Shown here piece by piece: positions 10,091 to 44,902 of a DNA stretch of 64,000 nt. Both the position numbers and the translations under genes were made by a program. The stretch is from Streptomyces albofaciens JCM 4342 (lineage in GTDB: Bacteria > Actinomycetota > Actinomycetes > Streptomycetales > Streptomycetaceae): assembly GCF_008634025.1 (NCBI RefSeq), contig NZ_PDCM01000001.1, positions 3,070,501 to 3,134,500 on the forward strand, written 5' to 3'. The notes beneath the pieces were generated by a model, which saw only the letters and a list, made by a program, of their open reading frames with translations, was not told the DNA's origin and searched no databases. Position 1 is the first letter of the stretch; every line of letters starts with the position of its first letter.

Positions 10091-10195
10091 CCGCGACTCC
10101 TTTGTCCTTCGTCCAGGGGAAGGCGGACCCCGGGTCCCTCCGGTGGTCCGCGCCCTCCGAGAGGGCGTTGGTCGGCCTCCGGCACTGTCCACCAT

Positions 10196-10232
10196 AACGA
10201 ATATTGTCGTGTGGTGTTCGACAATGCCGACC
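10196..10232. promoter_or_regulatory. Paired GylR-like operator sites upstream of glpF
   Basis: GTTCGACAATGCCGACC at 10216-10232 matches the site upstream of gylR (GTTCGGCAATGCTGAAC) at 13 of 17 positions. A second copy of the core CGACAAT lies in inverted orientation 20 bp away, so ATTGTCG (10203-10209) and CGACAAT (10219-10225) form a perfect 7-bp inverted repeat. A possible minus-strand -35 element TTGACG is at 10266-10271 with only a weak -10 (AAAACT), which would place the sites just downstream of the start point. GylR binding is inferred. Confidence 0.6.
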
Positions 10233-20327: not shown

Positions 20328-21401
20328 TTAGACCAGGTCCATTCTGCCCTGCCCCTCCCCGGACCCCGCCACAGGGAGCGCCCGCCCCCGGCCGGGCACC
20401 GGCAGCGGATACGGCGGGGGAGTACCGCCGAATTCCGGACACACCGCCTGGTGGTCGCACCATCCGCACAGCTTCGTACGGCGCGGGCGCCAGTCGCCGG
20501 TCTCGGTCGCCCGCTGGATGGCGTCCCACAGCGCCAGCAGCTTGCGCTCCACACCGAGCAGGTCCGCCTCGGTCGGGTCGTACGTCAGCACGTCGCCGCT
20601 GCCCAGGTACACCAGCTGGAGCCGGCGCGGCACGATGCCGCGCAGCCGCCACACCACCAGCGCGTAGAACTTCATCTGGAACAGCGGGCCGTCGGCGTAC
20701 TCGGGTCGGGGCGCCTTGCCGGTCTTGTAGTCGACGAGGCGCACCTCGCCGGTCGGGGCCACGTCCACCCGGTCGATGAAGCCGCGCAGCTGGAGGCCCG
20801 AGTCGAGCACCGTCTCCACATACAGCTCGCGGTCGGCGGGCTCCAGACGGGTCGGGTCCTCCAGCGAGAACCACCGCTCCACCAGCGCCTCGGCGTCCGC
20901 CAGCCAGGCCGCCAGCCGCTCGCCCGCCGGGTCGTCCACGAACAGCTCGGCCAGCTCCGGCCGCTTCGCCAGCAGCTTCTCCCACTCGCCCGGCACCATC
21001 GCCCGCGCGCCGACGGCCGTACGCTGCGCCGCCGGGGCGTCGAAGAGCCGCTCCAGCACCGCGTGCACCACCGTGCCGCGGGTCGCCGCGGCGCTCGGCT
21101 TCTCCGGCAGCTTGTCGATCACCCGGAAGCGGTACAGCAACGGGCACTGCATGAAGTCGCTCGCCCGCGACGGGGAGAGGGAGACGGGGCGGGTGGCGGG
21201 GGAGGGGGCGGTGGCCTCCGGGGTGGTGGCGTTCCGCACGCCGGCCTCGGGCGCGGCGGCAGGCGCAGGCACGGGGGCGGTGGCCGCTCCGGCCGTCCCG
21301 CCCTCGTCGGTCCCTCCGGCCACCCCGGCCCCGCCGGTGCCGTCCTGCCCGCCGTCCCCGCCCGTGGCGTCCGGCGCGGCCTTCTCGGTGCTCGTTCCCA
21401 T
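20328..21401 (-). CDS. RecB-family PD-(D/E)XK nuclease with probable 4Fe-4S cluster
   Basis: A 357-residue nuclease-domain protein of the PD-(D/E)XK superfamily (RecB/AddB C-terminal type). After a low-complexity Ala/Gly/Pro-rich N-terminus (1-70), the domain begins SLSPSRASDFMQCPLLYRF. Catalytic residues are visible in LRGFIDRVDV and LVDYKTGKAP. Cys86 with Cys312, Cys315 and Cys321 (LCGWCDHQAVCPEF) is the pattern of an iron-sulfur cluster that staples the fold. No helicase domain is present, so it is a stand-alone nuclease. TAGGGT at 21410-21415, 8 nt before the ATG, suggests an almost leaderless transcript. It is followed 13 nt later by the response regulator, perhaps as one operon. A DNA repair or processing role is likely but unproved. 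Confidence 0.88.
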   Translation of the reverse strand: MGTSTEKAAPDATGGDGGQDGTGGAGVAGGTDEGGTAGAATAPVPAPAAAPEAGVRNATTPEATAPSPATRPVSLSPSRASDFMQCPLLYRFRVIDKLPEKPSAAATRGTVVHAVLERLFDAPAAQRTAVGARAMVPGEWEKLLAKRPELAELFVDDPAGERLAAWLADAEALVERWFSLEDPTRLEPADRELYVETVLDSGLQLRGFIDRVDVAPTGEVRLVDYKTGKAPRPEYADGPLFQMKFYALVVWRLRGIVPRRLQLVYLGSGDVLTYDPTEADLLGVERKLLALWDAIQRATETGDWRPRRTKLCGWCDHQAVCPEFGGTPPPYPLPVPGRGRALPVAGSGEGQGRMDLV

Positions 21402-21593
21402 GACATACGACCCTACGGCCCGCCACTGACAGCTCCGGCAACCGAGGGATCACAATGGGAGACCGAGACGGGGCGTCGCGGAGCGTTCCGCATACCATCG
21501 ACGCCAGACCCCTTCGCCCTGCATGATCGACAGACCGTACCGGACCGGAACCGGACGGACAGGAGCGAAGGCCGCAATCGACGAGGGGACGCC

Positions 21594-23281: not shown

Positions 23282-23293
23282 TAGGCTGGTCAC
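23282..23293 (+). promoter_or_regulatory. Leaderless promoter of trmI
   Basis: TAGGCT at 23282-23287 lies 6 nt before the ATG and no ribosome site is present, so transcription probably begins at or next to the start codon. Confidence 0.6.
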
Positions 23294-25476: not shown

Positions 25477-25514
25477 CAGGAAGCGTCCAGCTCCCCTTGG
25501 AGGAGGTGAGGACC

Positions 25515-27281
25515 GTGGCAGCCCACGACGACGACATCAACCGCGGCATCCGGCCGGGGCGGGGGTCTGACGACCCTGCCGGCCAGGTTGCCTATCTCGA
25601 GCAGGAGATCGCCGTCCTGCGACGCAAGCTCGCCGACTCTCCGCGTCACACGAGGATTCTCGAAGAGCGGATCGTCGAGCTGCAGACCAACCTGGCCGGC
25701 GTTTCGGCACAGAACGAGCGACTCGCCAACACACTGCGCGAGGCGCGCGACCAGATCGTCGCCCTCAAGGAGGAGGTCGACCGGCTGGCGCAGCCGCCGG
25801 CCGGCTTCGGCGTCTTCCTGCAGGCGAACGAGGACGGCACGGCCGACATCTTCACCGGAGGCCGAAAACTCCGGGTGAACGTCAGCCCGAGCGTCGACCT
25901 CGACGAGCTGCGGCGTGGCCAGGAGGTCATGCTGAACGAGGCGCTCAACGTGGTCGAGGCCATGGAGTACGAGAACGCCGGGGACATCGTCACCCTCAAG
26001 GAGATCCTGGAGGACGGCGAGCGCGCCCTGGTGATCGGGCACACCGACGAGGAGCGGGTGGTGAGGCTCGCCGAGCCGCTGCTGGACACCACCATCCGCC
26101 CCGGCGACGCCCTACTCCTGGAACCGCGCTCCGGCTACGTCTACGAGGTCATCCCCAAGAGCGAGGTCGAAGAGCTCGTCCTCGAAGAGGTTCCGGACAT
26201 CGACTACACGAAGATCGGCGGTCTGGGCGGCCAGATCGAACTGATCCGCGACGCGGTCGAGCTTCCGTACCTGTACCCGGACCTCTTCAAGGAGCACGAA
26301 CTGCGCCCGCCCAAGGGCGTGTTGCTCTACGGACCGCCCGGCTGCGGCAAGACGCTGATCGCCAAGGCGGTCGCCAACTCGCTCGCCAAGAAGGTCGCCG
26401 AGGTGACCGGCAAGCCGGCGGGGAAGAGCTTCTTCCTCAACATCAAGGGCCCCGAGCTGCTGAACAAGTACGTCGGCGAGACGGAGCGGCACATCCGTCT
26501 GGTCTTCCAGCGGGCCCGGGAGAAGGCGAGCGAGGGCACTCCCGTCATCGTCTTCTTCGACGAGATGGACTCCCTCTTCCGCACCCGCGGATCCGGGGTC
26601 AGCTCGGACGTGGAGAACACCATCGTCCCGCAGCTGCTCTCCGAGATCGACGGTGTGGAGGGCCTGGAGAACGTCATCGTCATCGGCGCCTCCAACCGCG
26701 AGGACATGATCGACCCGGCGATCCTGCGCCCCGGCCGGCTGGACGTGAAGATCAAGATCGAGCGTCCGGACGCCGAGGCCGCCAAGGACATCTTCTCGAA
26801 GTACCTCACCGAGCGGCTGCCGCTGCACGCCGACGACCTCAGCGAGCACGGCGGGGTCCGCTCGGCCGCGGTCAGCGCGATGATCCAGTCGGTTGTCGAG
26901 CAGATGTACGCGGAGTCCGAGGAGAACCGCTTCCTGGAGGTCACCTACGCCAATGGTGACAAGGAAGTTCTCTATTTCAAGGACTTCAACTCCGGTGCGA
27001 TGATCGAAAATATCGTCGGCCGCGCCAAGAAGATGGCCATCAAGGCATTCCTCGAACACAACCAGAAGGGTCTGCGCGTCTCCCACCTGCTCCAGGCGTG
27101 CGTGGACGAGTTCAAGGAGAACGAGGACCTGCCCAACACCACCAACCCGGACGACTGGGCCCGCATCTCCGGCAAGAAGGGCGAGCGGATCGTCTACATC
27201 CGCACCCTGGTCACCGGCAAGCAGGGCGCGGACACCGGTCGCTCCATCGACACGGTGGCGAATACCGGCCAATACCTGTAA
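25515..27281 (+). CDS. arc: Proteasome-associated AAA+ ATPase (ARC/Mpa)
   Basis: A 588-residue ring-forming unfoldase that recognises Pup-tagged proteins and threads them into the 20S proteasome. The order is an N-terminal coiled coil (about 20-75) that binds Pup, two OB-like domains (about 80-225), and an AAA+ module. Walker A is GPPGCGKT (about 273-280), Walker [11 protein letters not shown] (about 346-355). The last residues are GQYL, the Gln-Tyr-Leu tail that docks in the alpha-ring pockets. GGAGGTGAGG precedes the GTG. It opens the proteasome region, upstream of dop. A TTG 18 nt upstream is in frame but would fall on the ribosome site. Confidence 0.97.
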
Positions 27282-27557: not shown

Positions 27558-29069
27558 ATGACCGTACGGCGAGTAATGGGAATCGAGACGGAGTACGGGA
27601 TCTCCGTCCCCGGCCACCCGAACGCCAATGCCATGCTCACCTCGTCCCAGGTCGTCAACGCCTACGCGGCGGCGATGCACCGGGCGCGACGCGCCCGCTG
27701 GGACTTCGAGGAGGAGAACCCGCTGCGGGACGCCCGAGGCTTCGACCTCGCCCGCGAGAACGCCGACGCCAGCCAGCTCACCGACGAGGACATCGGGCTG
27801 GCCAACGTGATCCTGACCAACGGGGCACGCCTGTACGTCGACCACGCGCATCCGGAGTACAGCTCGCCGGAGGTCACCAACCCGCGTGACGCGGTGCTCT
27901 GGGACAAGGCCGGCGAGCGCATCATGGCCGAGGCCGCCGAGCGCGCCGCCCAGGTGCCCGGCGCCCAGCCCATCCACCTGTACAAGAACAACACCGACAA
28001 CAAGGGCGCCTCCTACGGCACGCACGAGAACTACCTGATGAAGCGGGAGACGCCGTTCTCCGACATCGTGCGTCACCTGACGCCGTTCTTCGTCTCCCGG
28101 CAGGTCTTCGCCGGCGCCGGCCGCGTCGGCATCGGCCAGGACGGCCACGAGCACGGCTTCCAGATCAGCCAGCGCGCGGACTACTTCGAGGTCGAGGTCG
28201 GCCTGGAGACGACGCTCAAGCGCCCCATCATCAACACCCGCGACGAGCCGCACTCGGACGCGGAGAAGTACCGCCGGCTGCACGTGATCATCGGGGACGC
28301 GAACCTCTCCGAGATCTCCACGTACCTCAAGCTGGGCACCACCGCACTGGTCCTGTCCATGATCGAGGACGGCTTCATCGCCGCGGACCTCGCCGTCGAC
28401 CAGCCCGTACGCGCTCTCCACCAGGTCTCCCACGACCCGACGCTGCGGCATCTGATCACGCTGCGCAGCGGCCGTACGCTGACCGCCGTACAACTCCAGA
28501 TGGAGTACTTCGAGCTGGCGCGCAAGTACGTCGAGGACCGGCTCGGCGCGGACGCCGACGAGCAGACCAAGGACGTCCTGGCCCGCTGGGAGGACGTGCT
28601 GGGGCGCCTGGAGCACGATCCGATGAGCCTGTCCGGCGAGCTGGACTGGGTGGCCAAGCGGGAGCTGATGGAGGGCTACCGGCGCCGGGACGGCGTGGAG
28701 TGGGACGCGCCCCGGCTGCACCTCGTCGACCTCCAGTACGCCGACGTACGGCCCGACAAGGGCCTCTACAACCGGCTGGCGGCCCGCGGCAAGATGAAGC
28801 GGCTGCTGACCGACGCCGAGGTCGCGAGGGCGGCACAGGCGCCCCCGGAGGACACCCGGGCGTACTTCCGCGGCCGCTGCCTGGAGCAGTACGCGGACGA
28901 CGTGGCGGCGGCCTCCTGGGACTCGGTGATCTTCGATCTGCCGGGCCGTGACTCTCTGCAACGGGTACCGACGCTGGAACCGCTGCGCGGCACCCGCAAC
29001 CACGTCAAGGAGCTGCTCGACCGGTGCCGTACGGCCGAGGACCTGGTGCGGGTCCTTTCCGGAGGGTGA
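27558..29069 (+). CDS. dop: Pup deamidase/depupylase
   Basis: A 503-residue carboxylate-amine-ligase-fold enzyme that converts the C-terminal Gln of Pup to Glu and also removes Pup from substrates. The start [14 protein letters not shown] carries the magnesium-binding Glu residues. The Dop-specific loop region lies after residue 35 ([23 protein letters not shown]). Other conserved blocks are [17 protein letters not shown] and [21 protein letters not shown], shared with PafA. AAGGAGGG lies upstream of the ATG. It is paralogous to pafA in this window but about 50 residues longer. Because Pup here ends in Gln, Dop is required for conjugation. Confidence 0.96.
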
Positions 29070-29118: not shown

Positions 29119-29200
29119 GGGAATCATCGGGGTGACTCCGGACGTTGCACGAAGACGAGGAAGAACAGGGCCGATGTCAGACCTTGCTTGTAGGGTCTGA
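29119..29200 (+). promoter_or_regulatory. Candidate pup promoter region
   Basis: Two signals are seen. GGGAAT (29119-29124), 19 nt, then GTT (29144-29146) resembles the SigR thiol-stress promoter pattern. Further down, TCAGACC (29177-29183) and GGTCTGA (29194-29200) form a perfect 7-bp inverted repeat that overlaps a -10-like TAGGGT (29191-29196). Neither is proven. Confidence 0.4.
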
Positions 29201-29246: not shown

Positions 29247-29465
29247 ATGGCGACCAAGGACACCGGCGGCGGACAGCAGAAGGCGACGCGTTCGACCGAA
29301 GAGGTCGAGGAGCAGTCGCAGGACGCGCAGGCCGCGGACGATCTCAAGGAACGGCAGGAGAAGCTGTCGGACGACGTCGACTCCGTCCTGGACGAGATCG
29401 ACGACGTGCTGGAGGAGAACGCCGAGGACTTCGTGCGGAGCTTCGTGCAAAAGGGCGGACAGTAA
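29247..29465 (+). CDS. pup: Prokaryotic ubiquitin-like protein Pup
   Basis: A 72-residue, intrinsically disordered protein modifier. Its C-terminal half is rich in Asp and Glu and forms a helix on ARC binding (LDEIDDVLEENAEDFVRSFV). It ends KGGQ: the Gly-Gly-Gln form that needs deamidation by Dop before PafA can attach it to Lys of a target. The ATG at 29247 is the conserved MATKDTGGG start; the frame is open 34 codons upstream but without similarity. It follows dop by 177 nt and precedes the decayed endonuclease-like gene and prcB. Confidence 0.97.
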   Translation: MATKDTGGGQQKATRSTEEVEEQSQDAQAADDLKERQEKLSDDVDSVLDEIDDVLEENAEDFVRSFVQKGGQ

Positions 29466-29727: not shown

Positions 29728-29910
29728 GTGCATGTGGATCACGGCCCCAGGACAGGTAAGGTCCGGGACGTACTGTGCTTCAGCTGCAACGCAGCGCTGG
29801 GCCAATTCAAGGAGCGGCCGGACGTCTTGGCGCGGACGGCCGAATATCCGGAAGGAAACGTGTGGAAGCCAACACTCGTAGCACCGGGCGTCTACCAGCT
29901 GCCTTCCTGA
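29728..29910 (+). pseudogene. Decayed endonuclease VII-like gene between pup and prcB
   Basis: This 60-codon frame reads [20 protein letters not shown] and continues [14 protein letters not shown] to the end [14 protein letters not shown]. That is the C-terminal half of an endonuclease VII-type zinc HNH protein. The expected N-terminal zinc-ribbon and the CxxC just before HVDH are missing in all three frames upstream; the frame is open back to 29242 but contains no ATG, GTG or TTG and codes only Arg-rich junk. The active-site HVDHDH of the family is HVDHGP here. It overlaps the prcB start by 49 nt. As I recall, Streptomyces genomes often have an intact small gene at this place, so I call this a 5'-truncated remnant. 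A residual expressed peptide cannot be excluded. Confidence 0.6.
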
Positions 29911-30707
29911 CGCCCGGGTCCTCGTCGTTCATGGACTTCCTCGGGGAGCACTCGCCGGAGCTGCTGCCGGGCCGTCGGCAGCCGCTGCCCGTGCAGGGCG
30001 CCGTCGAGGCGCCGCACGGCACGACGATCGTGGCGGCGTCCTTCCCCGGCGGCGTGGTGCTCGCCGGTGACCGCCGCGCGACGATGGGCAACGTCATCGC
30101 GCAGCGCGACATCGAGAAGGTCTTCCCGGCCGACGAGTACTCGGCCGTCGGCATCGCCGGTACGGCCGGCCTCGCCGTCGAGATGGTCAAGCTCTTCCAG
30201 TTGGAGCTGGAGCACTTCGAGAAGGTCGAGGGCGCCCAACTCTCCCTGGAGGGCAAGGCGAACCGCCTGTCGACGATGATCCGCAGCAATCTCGGGATGG
30301 CCATGCAGGGCCTGGCCGTGGTGCCGCTGTTCGCCGGCTGGGACGTGGACCGTGCGAAGGGACGCATCTTCTCGTACGACGTGACCGGCGGGCGCTCGGA
30401 GGAGCACGGCTTCGCGGCGACGGGCTCCGGCTCGCTCTTCGCGCGCGGCGCCCTGAAGAAGCTCTACCGCGACGACCTCACGGAGAACCAGGCCGCCACG
30501 GCCGTCGTGCAGGCGCTGTACGACGCCGCCGACGACGACTCGGCGACCGGCGGCCCCGACCTGGCGCGCCGGATCTACCCGATCGTCACGGTCATCACCG
30601 AAGAGGGCTTCAAGCGGTTCACCGAGGCCGAGGTGTCGGAGATCGCCCGCACCATCCACGAGCGGCGGCTGGAACAGCCCGACGGCCCGCGCGCCGCGCT
30701 GCTCTGA
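29862..30707 (+). CDS. prcB: 20S proteasome beta subunit
   Basis: A 281-residue catalytic proteasome subunit. A 53-residue propeptide ends in EAPHG, and self-cleavage exposes the nucleophile Thr54 in [19 protein letters not shown]. The catalytic Asp and Lys expected after the Thr are visible in AGDRR and the following strands (Asp in GDRRATMG). Beta subunits form the two inner heptameric rings. The GTG at 29862 is supported by GGAAGGAAA just upstream and by the conserved propeptide; it lies inside the end of the endonuclease-like remnant. The gene is followed 60 nt later by prcA. Confidence 0.97.
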
Positions 30708-30767: not shown

Positions 30768-31562
30768 GTGTCGACGCCGTTCTATGTCTCACCCCAGCAG
30801 GCCATGGCCGACCGCGCCGAGTACGCCCGCAAGGGCATCGCGCGCGGCCGCAGCGTCGTGGTGCTGCAGTATGCCGACGGCGTGGTCTTCGTCGCCGAGA
30901 ACCCGTCCCGCGCCCTGCACAAGGTCAGCGAGATCTACGACCGGATCGCCTTCGCGGCGGTCGGCAAGTACAACGAGTTCGAGAACCTGCGCATCGGCGG
31001 CGTGCGCTACGCCGACCTGCGCGGCTATACCTACGACCGGGCGGACGTGACCGCCCGCGGCCTCGCCAATGTCTACGCCCAGACCCTCGGTACGATCTTC
31101 TCCAGCGCCGCCGAGAAGCCGTACGAGGTCGAGCTGATCGTCGCGGAGGTGGGCAACGCCCCCGAGGACGACCAGATCTACCGCCTGCCGCACGACGGAT
31201 CGATCGTGGACGAGCACGGTTCGGTCGCGGTCGGCGGCAACGCCGATCAGATCAGCAGCTACCTCGATCAGCGGCACCGCGACGGCATGACGCTCGGCGA
31301 GGCGCTCAAGCTGGCCGTCGAGTCGCTCTCGCGCGACAACAACGGCGGTGAACGCACTCTGACCGCCGAGCAGTTGGAGGTCGCCACCCTCGACCGTACG
31401 CGCCCGCAGCAGCGCAAGTTCAAGCGCATCCTGGGCCGTCAGCTGTCCCGGCTGCTGGAGGAGAACGGCGCCGCGGCGTCCGCAGAGGGCTCCGAGGCGG
31501 CCGCGGACGAGTCGTCGGGCTCCGCGGATTCCGAGGGCACGTCCGGTTCCGAGAGCTCGTAA
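30768..31562 (+). CDS. prcA: 20S proteasome alpha subunit
   Basis: A 264-residue alpha subunit of the outer proteasome rings, which form the gate and the docking pockets for the ARC tail. The N-terminus [20 protein letters not shown] is the gating segment. The core is typical: [21 protein letters not shown] and the [19 protein letters not shown] helix. The last 40 residues are a disordered Ser/Glu/Gly-rich tail, common in actinomycete homologues. GTG start with AAAGGGACGG upstream. A terminator follows 23 nt after the stop, so the dop-pup-prcBA unit ends here. Confidence 0.97.
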
Positions 31563-34210: not shown

Positions 34211-35572
34211 ATGGACCGCCGCATTTTCGGGCTGGAGAACGAGTACGGCGTCACGTGCACGTTCAGGGGACAGCGCCGACTGTCTCCTGACGAAGTGGCG
34301 CGGTACCTCTTCCGCCGTGTCGTGTCATGGGGCCGCAGCAGCAATGTCTTCCTGCGGAACGGCGCCCGCCTGTACCTGGACGTGGGTTCGCACCCGGAAT
34401 ACGCAACCCCCGAGTGCGACAACGTGACCGAGCTGGTCACCCACGACAAGGCCGGTGAGCGCATTCTCGAAGGTCTGCTGGTCGACGCCGAGCGTCGCCT
34501 GCACGAGGAAGGAATCGCGGGCGACGTCTATCTCTTCAAGAACAACACCGATTCCGCCGGAAACTCCTATGGTTGCCACGAAAACTATCTCGTGGCCCGG
34601 CACGGGGAGTTCTCCCGGCTCGCGGACATTCTCATCCCGTTCCTGGTCACGCGTCAGCTGCTGTGCGGCGCGGGCAAGGTCCTGCAGACCCCCCGCGGGG
34701 CCGTCTACTGCGTGAGCCAGCGCGCCGAGCACATCTGGGAGGGCGTCTCCTCGGCGACCACCCGCTCCCGTCCGATCATCAACACCCGCGACGAGCCGCA
34801 CGCCGACGCCGAGCGCTACCGCCGGCTGCACGTCATCGTCGGCGACTCCAACATGTCGGAGACGACCATGCTGTTGAAGGTCGGCGCCACCGACCTCGTA
34901 CTGCGCATGATCGAGGCCGGCACGGTCATGCGCGACCTGACCCTGGAGAACCCGATCCGCGCCATCCGGGAGGTCAGCCACGACATAACCGGTCAGCGCA
35001 AGGTGCGGCTGGCCAGCGGGCGGGAGGCCTCCGCGCTGGAGGTCCAGCAGGAGTACTACGAAAAGGCGGTGGACTTCTGCGAGCGGCGCGGTATCCGCAC
35101 GGGCATGGTCGAGCGGGTTCTGGAATTGTGGGGCCGTACGCTCGAAGCCGTACGGGAACAGGACCTCGACCGGATCGACACCGAGATCGACTGGGTGATG
35201 AAGTACAAGCTCATCGAGCGCTACCGCTCGAAGAACAACATCACCATGTCGCACCCGCGGGTCGCGCAGATAGATCTCGCGTATCACGACATCCACCGCC
35301 GACGGGGTCTGTACTACCTCCTGGAGCGCAAAGGACAAGCCGCCCGCATCTGCAACGACTTGAAGATCTTCGAAGGCAAGTCGGTGCCGCCGCAGACCAC
35401 CCGGGCCCGGCTGCGCGGCGACTTCATCCGCCGCGCCCAGGAACAGCGCCGTGATTTCACGGTCGACTGGGTGCATCTGAAGCTCAATGACCAGGCGCAG
35501 CGCACCGTGCTGTGCAAGGACCCGTTCCGGTCCGTGGACGACCGGGTGGAGAAGCTGATCGCCGGTATGTGA
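34211..35572 (+). CDS. pafA: Pup-protein ligase
   Basis: A 453-residue ATP-dependent ligase that joins the C-terminal Glu of deamidated Pup to Lys of target proteins. The glutamine-synthetase-like fold starts [13 protein letters not shown], with the metal-binding Glu9 and Glu11. Conserved blocks follow: [38 protein letters not shown] and, at the C-terminus, [12 protein letters not shown]. The Dop-specific loop is absent, which separates it from dop in this window. The ATG is the first codon after a leaderless-type promoter. It stands upstream of two FKBP genes and pafBC. Confidence 0.97.
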
Positions 35573-37338: not shown

Positions 37339-38328
37339 ATGGCCATTGCCAAGGCCGAGCGGCTGATGAATCTGGCGCTGTGCCTTCTGGGCACCCGTCG
37401 CCCGCTGACCAAGCGTGAACTGCGCGCCTCCATCGAGGCGTACGTCGAGGCGTTCGGCACCGGGGACGGCGGCACCGGCAGCGACGACTCCTTCAACCGG
37501 ATGTTCGAGCGCGACAAGGACGACCTGCGCGAACTGGGCCTGGTCATCGAGACCGTCGAGGGACTGGACGGGGAGACCGGCTACCTCGCGCGCCGGGACA
37601 GCAACCGCCTCCCCCCGATCACCCTGGACGCGGCCGAGGCCGCGGCGCTGGGCCTGGCCGCCAAGATCTGGCAGCAGGCCCGGCTGGCCGGCGCCGCCAG
37701 CGGCGCCCTGCAGAAGCTGCGCGCGGCCGGCATGCCCTTCGAGGACGACGGCTCCTTCGAGGCGCAGCAGCCGCACAGCGCCCTGGAGCCCCGCATCCCC
37801 GCCCACGAGGCCGCCTTCGAGCCCCTGATGCTCGCCTGCCGCGACCGCCGGCCCGTGGTCTTCGACTACCGCAGGTCCAACGCCGCCCGCCCCGAGCAGC
37901 GGCAGGTGGAGCCGTGGATACTGGAGTGCTGGCGCGGCCACTGGTACCTGGCCGGCTGGGACCGCGGGCGCCAGGCCGAACGCGTCTTCCGGCTCTCCCG
38001 CATCACCGGCAAGGTCCGCTCCCGGCAGGGGAAGTTCACCGCCGAGGTGCCCGACCACGTCACCGTCCGCGAGACGGTCGAGAGCTGGGCGGGCGAGACC
38101 GCCACCGGCACCGCCCGCATCAAACTGCGCGCCGACCACGGCTACCCGCTGCGCGCCCGCGCCCTGAGTATCCGTGAGCTGGGCGACGGCTGGGACGAGC
38201 TGGAGATCCCGTACGGGCACGGACTCGACGCCTGGCTGGTCGAGTTCGGCCCCGACGTGGTCGTGCTGGAACCCGCCGAACTGCGGGCCGATGTCGTGGA
38301 CCGGCTGCGCGCCGTGGCCAAGGGCTGA
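37339..38328 (+). CDS. pafB: WYL-domain DNA-damage regulator subunit PafB
   Basis: A 329-residue regulator with an N-terminal winged helix (about 1-75, KAERLMNLALCLLGTRRPLT) and a WYL domain (about 140-230) that may sense a damage-related nucleic acid. In the WYL core, RPVVFDYR, ECWRGHWYLAGWDRGR and ERVFRLSRITG are visible. A C-terminal extension (about 235-329) follows. In mycobacteria PafB and PafC act together to activate the LexA-independent DNA damage response from RecA-NDp promoters. Here pafC starts 21 nt downstream, a two-gene operon. A helicase gene 4 kb away carries a matching promoter element. Confidence 0.92.
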   Translation: MAIAKAERLMNLALCLLGTRRPLTKRELRASIEAYVEAFGTGDGGTGSDDSFNRMFERDKDDLRELGLVIETVEGLDGETGYLARRDSNRLPPITLDAAEAAALGLAAKIWQQARLAGAASGALQKLRAAGMPFEDDGSFEAQQPHSALEPRIPAHEAAFEPLMLACRDRRPVVFDYRRSNAARPEQRQVEPWILECWRGHWYLAGWDRGRQAERVFRLSRITGKVRSRQGKFTAEVPDHVTVRETVESWAGETATGTARIKLRADHGYPLRARALSIRELGDGWDELEIPYGHGLDAWLVEFGPDVVVLEPAELRADVVDRLRAVAKG

Positions 38329-38349: not shown

Positions 38350-39300
38350 ATGGCTACGAACGCGATCGACCAGACCCGGCGCATGCTGTCGCTGGTGACG
38401 TACCTGCGCGAGCGCCCCGGCGCCCGGGTCTCCGACGTCGCCCGCGCCTTCGGCATCTCCGAGGACGAGCTGATCGCCGACCTCGACGTACTGCCGATGT
38501 GCGGTACGAGCTTCCGCGGCGGCGACCTGCTCGACATCGACACCGACGGCGACCGCATCTGGTGGCACAACCCCGACGACGTCGCCGAACCGCTGCGCCT
38601 GGCCGCCGACGAGGCCACCGCCCTGCTGGTGGCCGCCCGCGCGGTCGCCACCCTTCCCGGCCTGCGCGAGGGCGACCGGCAGGCGCTGCTGCGCGCCACC
38701 GCCAAGCTGGAGGCCGCGGCGGGCGAGGCGGCCGGCGCCAGCTCCCGGGTCTCGGTCACCTTCGAGTCCGAGGGCGGCGTCTTCGCGGACGTCGACCGGG
38801 CGATCGCCGAGCGGCGCCGGCTGTGGCTGCGCTACTACTCGCCCGCGCGCGACGAGCTGACCGAGCGCGAGGTGGACCCGATCCGGCTGTTCGCGGTGGG
38901 CCACACGTACGTCGAGGCGTGGTGCCGGCTCTCGGAGGCGCGCCGCACCTTCCGGCTCGACCGGGTCGCCGAGATCAAGCTCCTGGACGCCCCCGCCGAC
39001 CCGCCGCCGGTCGAACTGCGCGACCTGTCCGAGGGGCTGGTGCAGCCGGCCGCCGAAGATCCCGAAGTCGTCGTCGAGGTCGGGCCCGGCGGGCGCTGGG
39101 TGGCCGAGTACTACCCGCACGACAGCGCCGAGGAACTGCCCGACGGCGGCCTGCGCATCACCCTGCGCACCCCCGACCCGGCCTCGCTGCGGCGGCTCGC
39201 GCTGCGCCTGGGCCGGGACGGCCGTATCGTCGCGCCGCAGGCCCTCGCGGACAGCGCGCGGCAGGCGGCACGGCAGGCACTGGCGGCGTACGGCGAGTAG
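38350..39300 (+). CDS. pafC: WYL-domain DNA-damage regulator subunit PafC
   Basis: A 316-residue paralogue and partner of PafB. The helix-turn-helix (about 1-60) reads RMLSLVTYLRERPGARVSDVARAFGISEDEL. The WYL domain (about 140-220) contains RRRLWLRYYSPARDELTEREVDP and GHTYVEAWCRLSEARRTFRLDR. The C-terminal part ends in QALAAYGE. It follows pafB by 21 nt on the same strand. Together they form the PafBC activator; pairing of two WYL genes next to pafA is the diagnostic context. Confidence 0.92.
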   Translation: MATNAIDQTRRMLSLVTYLRERPGARVSDVARAFGISEDELIADLDVLPMCGTSFRGGDLLDIDTDGDRIWWHNPDDVAEPLRLAADEATALLVAARAVATLPGLREGDRQALLRATAKLEAAAGEAAGASSRVSVTFESEGGVFADVDRAIAERRRLWLRYYSPARDELTEREVDPIRLFAVGHTYVEAWCRLSEARRTFRLDRVAEIKLLDAPADPPPVELRDLSEGLVQPAAEDPEVVVEVGPGGRWVAEYYPHDSAEELPDGGLRITLRTPDPASLRRLALRLGRDGRIVAPQALADSARQAARQALAAYGE

Positions 39301-40094: not shown

Positions 40095-40382
40095 ATGTTC
40101 GGTGGAAAGATCGGCGTTCCCGAGATCCTCCTCATCCTCGTCGTCGTCCTGCTGCTGTTCGGCGCGAAGAAGCTCCCCGACATGGCTCGTTCGCTCGGCA
40201 AGTCCGCACGCATCCTCAAGAGCGAGGCCAAGGCGATGAAGTCGGAGGGGACGGACACGCAGTCGGCGCCGTCCGACCCGCCGAACGGCCAGCAGGAAGT
40301 CCCCCGCACCATCCAGGCCGCTCCCGGCGATGTCAGCAGCGGACGGCCGGTGGCCCAGCCGTCCGACACCACCAAGCGCTGA
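40095..40382 (+). CDS. tatA: Sec-independent translocase subunit TatA
   Basis: A 95-residue membrane protein that forms the pore-like oligomer of the twin-arginine export system. A short N-terminus ([20 protein letters not shown]) gives the membrane helix, the conserved FG pair follows ([15 protein letters not shown]), then an amphipathic helix and a disordered Pro/Ser/Thr-rich tail. The ATG at 40095 is preferred over GTG 40077, which would add six residues before the helix; GAAGG lies 9 nt upstream. tatC follows 62 nt later. A separate tatB is not in this window. Confidence 0.95.
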
Positions 40383-40444: not shown

Positions 40445-41419
40445 GTGCTCAAGTCCGCCCTCCCGAAGAACCGCAAACCGAAGGACCCCGAGGGGCGCAT
40501 GCCGCTCGTGGAACACCTGCGCGAGCTGCGCAACCGGCTCGCCAAATCGGTCCTGGCCATTCTGATCGCCACGATCGTCTGCGCGTTCTTCTACAGCGAG
40601 ATCATCAACTTCATCACCAAGCCGATCCTGCAGGCGGTCGGCTGTGATGCGCAGTTCACGGACCTCGCGAAGCAGCAGAAGGGCACCTGTGCCCGCATCG
40701 TGATGCTGGACCTGCTCGGGCCGTTCGCACTGGCCCTGAAGGTTTCCCTGATGGGCGGCGTGATCGTCGCCTGCCCGGTCTGGCTGTACCAGTTGTGGGC
40801 CTTCCTCGCGCCCGGTCTGCACCGCAACGAGAAGAAGTACTCGCTCAGCTTCGTGGCCGCTGGGTTTCCGCTCTTCCTCATCGGCGCCTACTTCGCTTAC
40901 TCGGTGCTGCCGACCACCGCCCAGGTGCTGCTGGAATTCACGCCGGTCGGCGTGGACAACCTCCTGCCGCTGGACAAACTGCTGGACCTCGTCACCCGCA
41001 TGTTCGTGGTGTTCGGCCTGTCCTTCGAGCTCCCCCTGGCGCTGGTGATGCTCAACTTCGCCGGGATCCTCACCGCGGCCCGGATGCGCGGCTGGTGGCG
41101 TGGCATGGTGATGGCCATCACGGTCTTCTCGGCCATCGCGACCCCGAGCACCGACCCGCTGACGATGATCGCCCTGGCAGCGCCGATCTGCCTTCTGTAC
41201 TTCGCAGCCGTCGCGATCGCCACGGTGAACGATTCCCGCAGGCAGCGCCGACTGTCCGAGGGGCCGGGCGACGACGAGGCCTCCGAGCTGGACCTGACCC
41301 CCGAGGACATCGGCGAGGTCGAGCCGGTCGCCGGTCACCGGATGCTGCCGGAGCAGGCGGGCACCGACACGCCGGATGGCCGGCCGCAGCGACGCAACGG
41401 GTACGACGACGTGACGTGA
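40445..41419 (+). CDS. tatC: Sec-independent translocase subunit TatC
   Basis: A 324-residue six-helix membrane protein that recognises twin-arginine signal peptides. The N-terminal receptor site MPLVEHLRELRNRL is at residues 19-32. Conserved loop LWAFLAPGLHRNEKKY follows helix 2, and the region FVVFGLSFELPL contains the functionally important Glu-Leu pair. A hydrophilic C-terminal tail of about 70 residues (GDDEASELDLTPEDIGEVE) is longer than in E. coli TatC and acidic. GTG start. The gene ends at a strong terminator shared with the convergent secreted-protein gene. Confidence 0.96.
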   Translation: MLKSALPKNRKPKDPEGRMPLVEHLRELRNRLAKSVLAILIATIVCAFFYSEIINFITKPILQAVGCDAQFTDLAKQQKGTCARIVMLDLLGPFALALKVSLMGGVIVACPVWLYQLWAFLAPGLHRNEKKYSLSFVAAGFPLFLIGAYFAYSVLPTTAQVLLEFTPVGVDNLLPLDKLLDLVTRMFVVFGLSFELPLALVMLNFAGILTAARMRGWWRGMVMAITVFSAIATPSTDPLTMIALAAPICLLYFAAVAIATVNDSRRQRRLSEGPGDDEASELDLTPEDIGEVEPVAGHRMLPEQAGTDTPDGRPQRRNGYDDVT

Positions 41420-41813: not shown

Positions 41814-42049
41814 GCTTTCCCCTCCGTCGGGGCGCGGAACGCCCCGCTCGTCCATGCGGTCGGCGACCGGCGCACCTGGTCAACGGTGCAAACCGGAACG
41901 GAACGTCGGACCGCGAATGATCTCTGTGAGGGTAACGGGGTGATTGTTCTGTTTTTGGAGCAGGTGTGCCCGGTGAGCCATTTCGGTGCCGGGGAGGGGG
42001 CCGCACGGCCGGAGCCCCCCGGTAAAGCCCGTCCATAATGATCGGCTCG

Positions 42050-42072
42050 TTGTCAGAGGTGGCCGGTAGGCT
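42050..42072 (+). promoter_or_regulatory. RecA-NDp-type promoter (PafBC site) upstream of helY
   Basis: TTGTCAGAG (42050-42058), exactly 8 nt, then TAGGCT (42067-42072) fits the DNA-damage promoter pattern TTGTCRGTG-N8-TANNNT with one mismatch in the first element. It lies 10 nt before the helY ATG. I looked for the same pattern elsewhere in the window, including at the other TAGGCT promoters, and found no other match. Confidence 0.6.
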
Positions 42073-42082
42073 CGTAAGCACG

Positions 42083-44902
42083 ATGACCGAGGACATGTCC
42101 CCTGCTGAGCGCTACGCCGCCGCCAAGCTGCGGGCGGCGGAGCAGGCCACCGCACTCGCCCCTTTCCGTGAGATGTACGACTTCGCGCTGGACCCGTTCC
42201 AGATCGACGCGTGCAAGGCTCTGGAGGCCGGGAAGGGAGTGCTGGTCGCGGCCCCGACCGGATCCGGCAAGACGATCGTGGGCGAGTTCGCCGTCCACCT
42301 GGCCCTGGAGCAGGGCCGCAAATGCTTCTACACGACGCCCATCAAGGCGCTCTCCAACCAGAAGTACCAGGACCTGGTGCGGCGCCACGGCGCGGACCGG
42401 GTCGGTCTGCTGACCGGTGACAACAGCGTCAACTCCGAGGCGCCGGTGGTCGTGATGACCACCGAGGTGCTGCGGAACATGCTGTACGCGGGCTCCCAGT
42501 CGCTGGCCGGCCTCGGCTATGTGGTCATGGACGAGGTGCACTATCTCTCCGACCGCTTCCGGGGCGCCGTCTGGGAAGAGGTGATCATTCACCTGCCCGA
42601 GTCGGTCACGCTCGTCTCACTGTCCGCCACGGTCTCCAACGCCGAGGAGTTCGGTGCCTGGCTGGACACCGTCCGCGGCGACACGGAAGTGATCGTCTCC
42701 GAGCACCGCCCGGTGCCGCTGTGGCAGCACGTGCTCGCCGGACGCCGGATGTACGACCTCTTCGAGGAGCGCGAGGGCCAGGGGAAGGGCAAGGCCGGGC
42801 GCCGCGAGGTCAACCCGGACCTGGAGCGGCTGGCCCGGCTGGAGAACAGCCGCCCGACGTTCGGCCGCGACAAGCGCCGGGGCCGCAACCAGCGCGAGGC
42901 GGACCGCGAGCGCGAGCGGCGCCAGCGCAGCCGTATCTGGACCCCGGGCCGCGCCGAGGTGATCGACCGGCTGGACCAGGAGGGCCTGCTGCCGGCGATC
43001 ACGTTCATCTTCAGCCGGGCCGGGTGCGAGTCGGCCGTCCAGCAGTGCCTGTATTCGGGGCTGCGGCTCAACGACCAGGAGGGCCGGGCCAGGGTCCGCG
43101 CCATCGTGGAGGAGCGGACGGCCGGCATCCCCGACGAGGACCTGCATGTGCTGGGGTACTACGAGTGGCTGGAGGGGCTGGAGCGGGGCATCGCCGCGCA
43201 CCACGCCGGCATGCTGCCCACCTTCAAGGAGGTGGTGGAGGAACTCTTCCTGAAGGGGCTGGTCAAGGCCGTTTTCGCGACGGAGACGCTGGCGCTGGGC
43301 ATCAACATGCCCGCCCGTTCCGTGGTGCTGGAGAAGCTGGTCAAGTGGAACGGCGAGCAGCACGCCGACATCACCCCCGGCGAGTACACCCAGCTCACCG
43401 GCCGCGCCGGGCGCCGCGGCATCGACGTCGAGGGCCATGCGGTGGTGCTCTGGCAGCGCGGCATGGACCCGGGCGCCCTGGCGGGCCTCGCCGGCACGCG
43501 TACGTATCCGCTGCGCTCGTCCTTCAAGCCGTCGTACAACATGGCGGTCAACCTCGTCTCGCAGTTCGGGCGGCACCGTTCACGCGAGCTGCTGGAGATG
43601 TCGTTCGCGCAGTTCCAGGCGGACAAGTCGGTGGTCGGGATCTCCCGCCAGGTGCAGCGCAACGAGGAGGGTCTGGAGGGCTACAAGGAGTCCATGACCT
43701 GCCACCTCGGCGACTTCGAGGAGTATTCGCGGCTGCGCCGGCAGCTCAAGGACCGGGAGACGGAGCTGGCCAAGCAGGGCGCGGCGCAGCGCCGGGCGGC
43801 CGCCGCGGCCGCGCTGGAGAAGCTCCGGCCGGGCGACGTCATCCACGTCCCGACGGGCAAGTACGCGGGCCTGGCGCTGGTGCTGGACCCGGGCATGCCG
43901 TCCGGGCGGACCAACGGGCACCGCGGCTTCGACGCGCACGACGGCCCCCGGCCGCTGGTGCTGACCGCCGAGCGGCAGGTCAAGCGGCTGGCGTCGATCG
44001 ACTTCCCGGTGCCGGTGGCGCCGCTGGACCGGATGCGCATCCCCAGGACGTTCAACGCGCGCAGCCCGCAGTCGCGCCGCGACCTGGCGTCCGCGCTGCG
44101 CACGAAGGCCGGGCACATCGCGCCGGAGCGGCACCGCAAGCAGCGGTCGGCGGCGGCCGACGACCGCGAGATCGCCCGGCTGCGTACAGAGATCCGCGCG
44201 CATCCCTGCCACGGCTGCGACGAGCGCGAGGACCACGCCCGCTGGGCCGAGCGCTACCACCGGCTGCTGCGGGACACCCGGCAGCTGGAGCGCCGTATCG
44301 AAGGCCGTACGAACACCATCGCGCGCACCTTCGACCGCATCTGCGGCCTGCTGACCGAACTCGACTACCTGGAAGGCGATACGGTCACGGACGAGGGCCG
44401 GCGGCTGGCGCGGCTCTACGGCGAACTGGATCTGCTGGCCAGCGAATGCCTGCGCGCCGGTGTCTGGAACGGGCTGGGCCCCGCCGAACTGGCCGCCTGC
44501 GCCTCGGCGCTGGTGTACGAGTCGCGCCAGGCGGACGACGCGGTGGCGCCGAAGCTGCCGTCGGGCAAGGCGCGGGACGCGCTCAGCGAGATGGTGCGGA
44601 TCTGGGGCCGGCTGGACGCCCTGGAGGAGGACCACAAGATCAACCAGGCGGAGGGCGTCGGCCAGCGCGAGCCGGACCTCGGCTTCGCCTGGGCCGCGTA
44701 CCGCTGGGCCTCCGGCTTCGGCCTCGACGAGGTGCTGCGCGAGGCGGAGATGCCGGCCGGTGACTTCGTGCGCTGGTGCAAGCAGCTGATCGACATCCTC
44801 GGCCAGCTCGCCGCCGCCGCACCGCCGGACGTGGCGCGCAACGCACGCAAGGCCGTGGACGCGGTGCTGCGGGGCGTGGTGGCGTACTCGTCCGTGGGGT
44901 GA
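42083..44902 (+). CDS. helY: Superfamily 2 RNA/DNA helicase, HelY/Mtr4-like
   Basis: A 939-residue Ski2/Mtr4-type helicase. Motif I AAPTGSGKT (about 56-64), motif II MDEVHYLS, motif III LSATVSN and motif VI QLTGRAGRRG are all present. A basic, Arg-rich insertion (about 235-290) separates the two RecA folds. The C-terminal half has a KOW-like segment (RPGDVIHVPTGKYAGLALVL) and a DSHCT-type helical domain ending near the stop. Such proteins unwind structured RNA or DNA; the mycobacterial HelY is the nearest named homologue. The ATG at 42083 is set by the TAGGCT promoter 10 nt upstream, with almost no leader. The PafBC-type promoter suggests induction by DNA damage. Confidence 0.9.
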   Translation: MTEDMSPAERYAAAKLRAAEQATALAPFREMYDFALDPFQIDACKALEAGKGVLVAAPTGSGKTIVGEFAVHLALEQGRKCFYTTPIKALSNQKYQDLVRRHGADRVGLLTGDNSVNSEAPVVVMTTEVLRNMLYAGSQSLAGLGYVVMDEVHYLSDRFRGAVWEEVIIHLPESVTLVSLSATVSNAEEFGAWLDTVRGDTEVIVSEHRPVPLWQHVLAGRRMYDLFEEREGQGKGKAGRREVNPDLERLARLENSRPTFGRDKRRGRNQREADRERERRQRSRIWTPGRAEVIDRLDQEGLLPAITFIFSRAGCESAVQQCLYSGLRLNDQEGRARVRAIVEERTAGIPDEDLHVLGYYEWLEGLERGIAAHHAGMLPTFKEVVEELFLKGLVKAVFATETLALGINMPARSVVLEKLVKWNGEQHADITPGEYTQLTGRAGRRGIDVEGHAVVLWQRGMDPGALAGLAGTRTYPLRSSFKPSYNMAVNLVSQFGRHRSRELLEMSFAQFQADKSVVGISRQVQRNEEGLEGYKESMTCHLGDFEEYSRLRRQLKDRETELAKQGAAQRRAAAAAALEKLRPGDVIHVPTGKYAGLALVLDPGMPSGRTNGHRGFDAHDGPRPLVLTAERQVKRLASIDFPVPVAPLDRMRIPRTFNARSPQSRRDLASALRTKAGHIAPERHRKQRSAAADDREIARLRTEIRAHPCHGCDEREDHARWAERYHRLLRDTRQLERRIEGRTNTIARTFDRICGLLTELDYLEGDTVTDEGRRLARLYGELDLLASECLRAGVWNGLGPAELAACASALVYESRQADDAVAPKLPSGKARDALSEMVRIWGRLDALEEDHKINQAEGVGQREPDLGFAWAAYRWASGFGLDEVLREAEMPAGDFVRWCKQLIDILGQLAAAAPPDVARNARKAVDAVLRGVVAYSSVG

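Follow-up and report, generated by a model that had tools for sequence, protein, structure and literature searches.

A conserved RecA-NDp-type element in the helY promoter of Streptomyces, adjoining a putative WblC site

The window, the 64,000-nucleotide stretch of Streptomyces albofaciens JCM 4342 DNA analyzed here, carries a Pup-proteasome locus, the regulator genes pafB and pafC, tatA, tatC, and the helicase gene helY (Table 1). The best PDB relatives of the helY product are the RNA helicases DOB1, MTR4, and SKI2, and the protein is 90 to 92% identical to HelY of named Streptomyces. An earlier note on this DNA had placed PafB and PafC upstream of helY, and both genes were confirmed there; in NCBIfam, neither PafB nor PafC of the window was assigned to a family.

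Table 1. Genes and promoter elements of the window
Feature	Position	Strand	Basis
RecB/AddB-like PD-(D/E)XK nuclease gene, ATG 8 nt past the -10	20328..21401	-	AddB match below its cutoff
Second RecA-NDp promoter, CTGTCAGTG-N8-TAGGGT (core TGTCAGTG-N8-TAGGGT at 21410-21431)	21410..21432	-	scan, 1 mismatch
Proteasomal ATPase gene (mpa/arc)	25497..27281	+	domain search; start from ORF list, not curated
Pup-ligase-family gene, "dop" by position (name inferred)	27558..29069	+	domain search
RecA-NDp-like variant TGTCAGAC-N8-TAGGGT upstream of pup	29175..29196	+	scan, conservation
pup	29247..29465	+	Pfam PF05639
Proteasome-subunit genes, prcB and prcA by position	29775..30707 and 30768..31562	+	domain search
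Pup-ligase-family gene, "pafA" by position (name inferred)	34211..35572	+	domain search
pafB (WYL, WCX), recognition helix SDDSFNRMFERDK	37339..38328	+	domain search, alignment
pafC (HTH_PafC, WYL, WCX)	38350..39300	+	domain search
tatA	40095..40382	+	position and sequence, inference
tatC	40445..41419	+	domain search
A-rich block CATAATGATC (hexamer CATAAT, then 3 bp, -35 position, 18-bp spacer)	42034..42043	+	sequence compared with GAAAWY
RecA-NDp-type element TTGTCAGAG (-26 region) with -10 TAGGCT	42050..42072	+	sequence, conservation
-10 hexamer TAGGCT of helY	42067..42072	+	sequence
helY, Ski2/Mtr4-type RNA helicase gene, 939 aa, DEAD and DSHCT domains	42083..44902	+	Pfam

A scan of the window found TTGTCAGAG-GTGGCCGG-TAGGCT upstream of helY, at 42050 to 42072 on the plus strand. 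It has one mismatch to the RecA-NDp consensus TTGTCRGTG-N8-TANNNT, and the claim that the motif occurs here with exact spacing and a single mismatch was borne out. TAGGCT is found in the window only at 23282, 27438, 39675, and 42067; none of the first three is preceded by TGTC 12 nt away, in agreement with the statement that they lack the upstream element. A LexA (SOS) promoter for helY was rejected, since CGAACNNNNGTTCG, which we take to be the LexA box consensus, is absent at two or fewer mismatches between 40043 and 44079. From the end of the -10 at 42072 to the helY ATG at 42083 there are 10 nt. With the distance between the -10 and the start site taken from promoters reported in PMC7157823, transcription would begin at 42079 to 42080, 7 to 8 nt past the -10, leaving a leader of 3 to 4 nt.

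The earlier note had proposed a search for the motif upstream of helY orthologues. Using the best 80 of 592 confirmed loci, all from named Streptomyces, we found the strict form of the motif (TGTCRGNG-N8-TANNNT) at the same place in 71/80 and the loose form (TGTC-N12-TANNNT) in 80/80. The AGNG half is altered in nine loci. Directly past TGTC, the next four bases read AGTG in 36 loci, AGAG in 20, GGTG in 7, GGAG in 6, ATAC in 5, AGCG in 2, and singletons in four, and RGTG is present in 43/80. The distance from TGTC to TANNNT is fixed at 12 nt in all 80 loci, the ATG lies 9 to 10 nt past the -10 in all 80, and the gap to the ATG is one base shorter in four. In sister genera, where 40 loci were fetched from 51 genomes, the region within 300 nt held the strict form at 15 loci, the loose form only at 15 more, and neither at 10; some sites lie farther upstream, because the aligned residue is apparently not the true start.

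The helY gene is present in 118/118 genomes of the class. When about 400 nt upstream was searched at 110 of these loci, with spacings of 7 to 9 allowed, the strict form was found in 10/10 Streptomyces and in 0/100 loci from families other than that of Streptomyces (family label f1). The loose form occurs at 6/100 other-family loci, and the three copies near the start (L224, L229, and L231) may be degenerate copies of the motif. As a control, the same pattern was sought upstream of recA and found at 9/9 Streptomyces and 15/21 other loci, a sample that leans to nearer relatives because its 30 loci are the best scoring of 117 genomes; two of the six misses carry TGTCGGAC. Both genes were read in 19 non-Streptomyces genomes; the motif was present at recA in 13 and at helY in none, and its absence from helY is therefore informative. 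By eye, several non-Streptomyces helY loci (e.g., L162, L209, L210, and L237) have a TAG-containing, -10-like hexamer a few nucleotides before the start, without TGTC, and the near-leaderless start may for this reason be older than the TGTC element.

The nearness of pafBC to helY had been read as a regulator-target arrangement. This was not borne out, and nearness was rejected as evidence of regulation: pafB and pafC lie upstream of helY in 74/80 non-Streptomyces loci fetched with several kilobases upstream (74 of the 78 long enough, two of the six without them being too short to tell), and none of these loci has the strict motif. The neighborhood is therefore older than the motif. Its near-constant presence makes a comparison of motif and pafBC unusable as a test.

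The helY element had also been described as the only RecA-NDp promoter in the window, which proved incorrect, since further copies precede the RecB-like nuclease gene, on the minus strand, and pup. The nuclease-gene promoter is a canonical RecA-NDp promoter, with the strict form upstream in 28/30 Streptomyces loci. The TGTCAGAC-N8-TAGGGT variant ends 50 nt before pup, and its TGTCRGAC form is found in 26/30 Streptomyces loci. Among the 20 best-scoring non-Streptomyces pup loci, four (all of family f68) carry a canonical TGTCGGTG form with its start 50 nt upstream of pup, and 15 lack the motif altogether. TGTC-N12-TANNNT matches the window four times, compared with a shuffle mean of 0.69 and a maximum of 3 (0/100 shuffles reach 4), and three of the matches precede genes that belong to or adjoin the Pup-proteasome locus, namely, those for the RecB-like nuclease, Pup, and HelY. 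The fourth, at 10186 to 10207 on the plus strand, is AT rich. The strict motif is not significant in the window alone (three matches at two or fewer mismatches; shuffle mean, 1.23; 12/100 shuffles reach three).

Across the genome, the strict pattern was matched at 71 sites, compared with 4 for a reversed control pattern. Free position 6, the T of GTG, is the most conserved free position (T in 59/71), and the helY element of the window has A there. A codon-biased open reading frame starts within 400 nt at 58/71 sites and 6 to 11 nt past the -10 at 30/71. Pfam was run on 50 of the 58 downstream proteins, and 17/50 belong to repair or replication, a share given without a background rate: UvrB-like, Mfd-like, AlkZ-like, DNA polymerase III alpha, MGMT, DEDDh exonuclease, RuvC, RarA-like, UDG, RecB-like, YoaA/DinG-like, RecA, UvrD-family helicase, XseA, PcrA, Nth, and DnaX, with several of these names below NCBIfam cutoffs (Mfd, RarA, and YoaA). 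The other 33 include HelY and many unrelated proteins (transporters, acetyltransferases, and a kinase). The recA gene of this genome has TTGTCAGTG-N8-TAGCGT upstream. A TGTCRKAC variant (L331 to L345) has 15 matches, compared with 2 for its control, and the 12 proteins scanned behind it comprise RecD2-like, DnaG, DNA ligase, XseB, Pup, and seven others, either unrelated or not assigned to any family.

The exact TGTCAGTG form has 13 to 57 matches in each of eight Streptomyces genomes (control, 0 to 1) and 0 to 6 in the other 189 genomes of the phylum, where low counts are not read as absence because the recA sites of other families are mostly TGTCGG and are undercounted. A chance origin of the helY motif was rejected on the basis of the genome-wide enrichment of the strict pattern (71 sites compared with 4) and the fixed place in orthologues. 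It is these two lines of evidence, and not the count in a single window, that establish the helY motif as a real, conserved promoter element.

A second conserved element, which the earlier note did not mention, lies upstream of TGTC. This A-rich block ends in GATC, with AAWGATC present in 74/80 helY orthologues, and GATC is separated from TGTC by a variable 6 to 8 nt. The block sits at the position of a WblC/WhiB7 element, with an 18-bp spacer in 55/80 orthologues; the consensus reported for WblC promoters places GAAAWY 3 bp ahead of the -35, with a spacer of 16 to 19 bp to TANNNT (PMC7157823). At the allowed spacings, the best match to GAAAWY averages 4.35/6 in the 80 orthologues, compared with 2.62 for shuffled sequences; the 71 RecA-NDp sites average 2.59, and 4 of them score 5 or 6. 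Among the orthologues, 42 score 5/6, 14 score 3/6, and none scores 6/6. The hexamer of the window scores 4/6, and among the matches listed (L031 to L042), eight of L031 to L040, close relatives, score only 3. In Streptomyces coelicolor, helY (SCO1631) is reported as a direct WblC target by ChIP-seq and RNA-seq (5.1-fold by RNA-seq), and HelY was raised among ribosome-associated proteins; in the mutant, the tetracycline effect was only marginal, at twofold (PMC7157823). The A-rich block is thus a putative WblC site, judged from its sequence and position. WblC input at helY is better documented than PafBC input.

For the RecA-NDp-type element, the candidate reader is PafBC. The PafB recognition helix of the window, SDDSFNRMFERDK, aligns with SDEAFSRMFERDK of PDB 7p5x/9fnd, which we take to be PafB of Mycobacterium smegmatis, as the residue numbers fit, and R54 and R58 correspond to R46 and R50. 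In M. smegmatis, the double change of R46 and R50 is reported to behave like a pafBC deletion; once activated by single-stranded DNA (ssDNA), PafBC takes a place between sigma domain 4 and the promoter DNA, where the PafB helix-turn-helix engages the -26 motif (PMC11804915, PMC6789036). The RecA-NDp motif is described as resembling the mycobacterial PafBC element (PMC8223512). By analogy, PafBC would read the helY element, and in S. albofaciens, where A replaces the T of GTG, this half of the promoter is for that reason probably weak.

The reading that we consider rather probable is a composite helY promoter with WblC input and a probable, weaker PafBC input. The promoter would be served by the housekeeping RNA polymerase and have a near-leaderless start. 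The A-rich block upstream of the -35 would act as a WblC/WhiB7 element inducing helY under translation stress, and the -26 region would supply the RecA-NDp element as TGTCAGAG or TGTCAGTG, with PafBC its most likely reader. If the mycobacterial mechanism applies, ssDNA-activated PafBC would replace -35 recognition, and the WblC and PafBC inputs would use one common -10. HelY would then be raised both on stalled translation and on DNA damage, and the Streptomyces family would have fixed the element next to a pafBC-tatC-helY neighborhood that was by then ancient. Counting against this reading are the altered AGNG half in nine Streptomyces loci, the mixed picture in sister genera, the A at position 6 of the helY element, the low hexamer scores of the window and its relatives, and the absence of the strict form from the 100 other-family loci. 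Of the link between helY and the DNA damage response drawn in the earlier note, the element itself stands, being conserved at Streptomyces helY and belonging to a genome set that has recA, ruvC, uvrB-like, and pcrA; the WblC input had been missed.

It is unlikely that helY answers translation stress alone, with TGTC and the nucleotides around the -10 preserved for the sake of RNA polymerase or WblC geometry rather than for PafBC. The WblC target status is experimental (PMC7157823), and an AAWGATC-like block is still visible by eye where AGNG has been lost (L266 to L274). However, TGTC starts 16 nt before the -10, off the -35 position, and holds its 12-nt distance to TANNNT at every locus while its distance to GATC varies. 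Moreover, the 71 genome sites have TGTCRGNG, on average without the A-rich block. Less likely again is a different reader of the RecA-NDp element, such as another WYL protein or a sigma factor. Actinobacteria are reported to average about 5.2 WYL proteins per organism (PMC6789036), and PMC9380542 left open in 2022 whether the motif depends on PafBC in Streptomyces; its initial search suggested a lack of conservation of the PafBC motif in Streptomyces venezuelae, which also counts against the composite reading. The resemblance of the motif to the mycobacterial element and the conserved recognition helix of PafB argue against such a reader. The 71 sites in this genome and the 13 to 57 exact-form hits in each of eight Streptomyces genomes allow a PafBC-type damage response in Streptomyces to be tested directly.

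Chance or coding conservation, the latter through an N-terminal HelY extension from an in-frame ATG at 42038, is scarcely credible. The open reading frame from this ATG does span the motif; an ATG is present at this position in 36/80 orthologues, the frame is open for 60 nt in 52/80, and some in-frame ATG or GTG precedes a stop in 60/80. Nevertheless, the ATG is absent from 44/80, an in-frame stop lies within 60 nt in 28/80, and the gap to helY is one base shorter in four. On these counts, coding conservation was rejected as a general cause.

RecA-NDp promoters were described for Streptomyces rimosus recA (Ahel 2002) and for Mycobacterium tuberculosis (Gamulin 2004), and their activator in mycobacteria is PafBC. 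The motif in Streptomyces is already in print, and helY is likely a new member of the known class. It shares with that class a TTGTCRGTG-like element, 8 nt, TANNNT, and a start codon often just past the -10, and the sites of this genome share a repair-rich gene set in which recA carries the motif. The helY promoter differs in the T-to-A change in S. albofaciens and in being joined to an A-rich, WblC-type block; at helY, the element is confined to the Streptomyces family, and PafBC as its reader is putative. Like the WblC promoters of S. coelicolor (PMC7157823), helY has an A-rich block set 3 bp ahead of the -35, an 18-bp spacer, and TANNNT, but by eye it has no recognizable -35 hexamer, and TGTCRGNG lies in the spacer. 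The SIGffRid motifs TGTCAGT-N14-TnG of S. coelicolor and Streptomyces avermitilis belong to the same promoter class (PMC2375139). That study assigns related motifs to 67 genes of S. coelicolor, 13 to 20 of them repair genes, and cites the UV-inducible S. rimosus recA promoter TTGTCAGTGGC-N6-TAGggT; its motif section does not name helY, which its supplementary gene list may hold. Among the main texts consulted, we found no publication that assigns Streptomyces helY or pup to RecA-NDp or PafBC control. A RecA-NDp gene is reported to be induced fivefold by UV (PMC5087735). In M. tuberculosis, a recA mutant exposed to mitomycin C is reported to overexpress the recB-like exonuclease gene rv2119 (PMC8151990), which would fit the RecB-like promoter of the window if the two genes correspond. 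M. smegmatis helY is reported to rise with a G-quadruplex ligand (PMC8931766), which is a hint only.

More tentatively, and with somewhat less than even confidence, we suggest that the Pup-proteasome locus may be wired to its own damage regulator at the RecB-like nuclease gene, pup, and helY, such that damage would raise Pup and helY would join both stress responses. If this is true, more Pup would mean more machinery for clearing RecA and other repair proteins afterwards, a built-in off switch, making pup a candidate feedback loop. At the helY promoter, a single -10 would have to serve two activators of the housekeeping polymerase.

The RecA-NDp motif was also observed upstream of the DISARM phage defense gene drmA, in 9/22 Streptomyces loci (from 21 of 150 genomes) and in 6/6 loci at 60% identity or more. 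The loci with the motif are L112/L434 (from the same genome, outside the window, on contig C1 near 3212767), L435 to L439, L446, L453, and L454. An ssDNA-triggered regulator pair is reported beside other DISARM operons (PMC10693628), and the motif at drmA suggests a damage-inducible phage defense.
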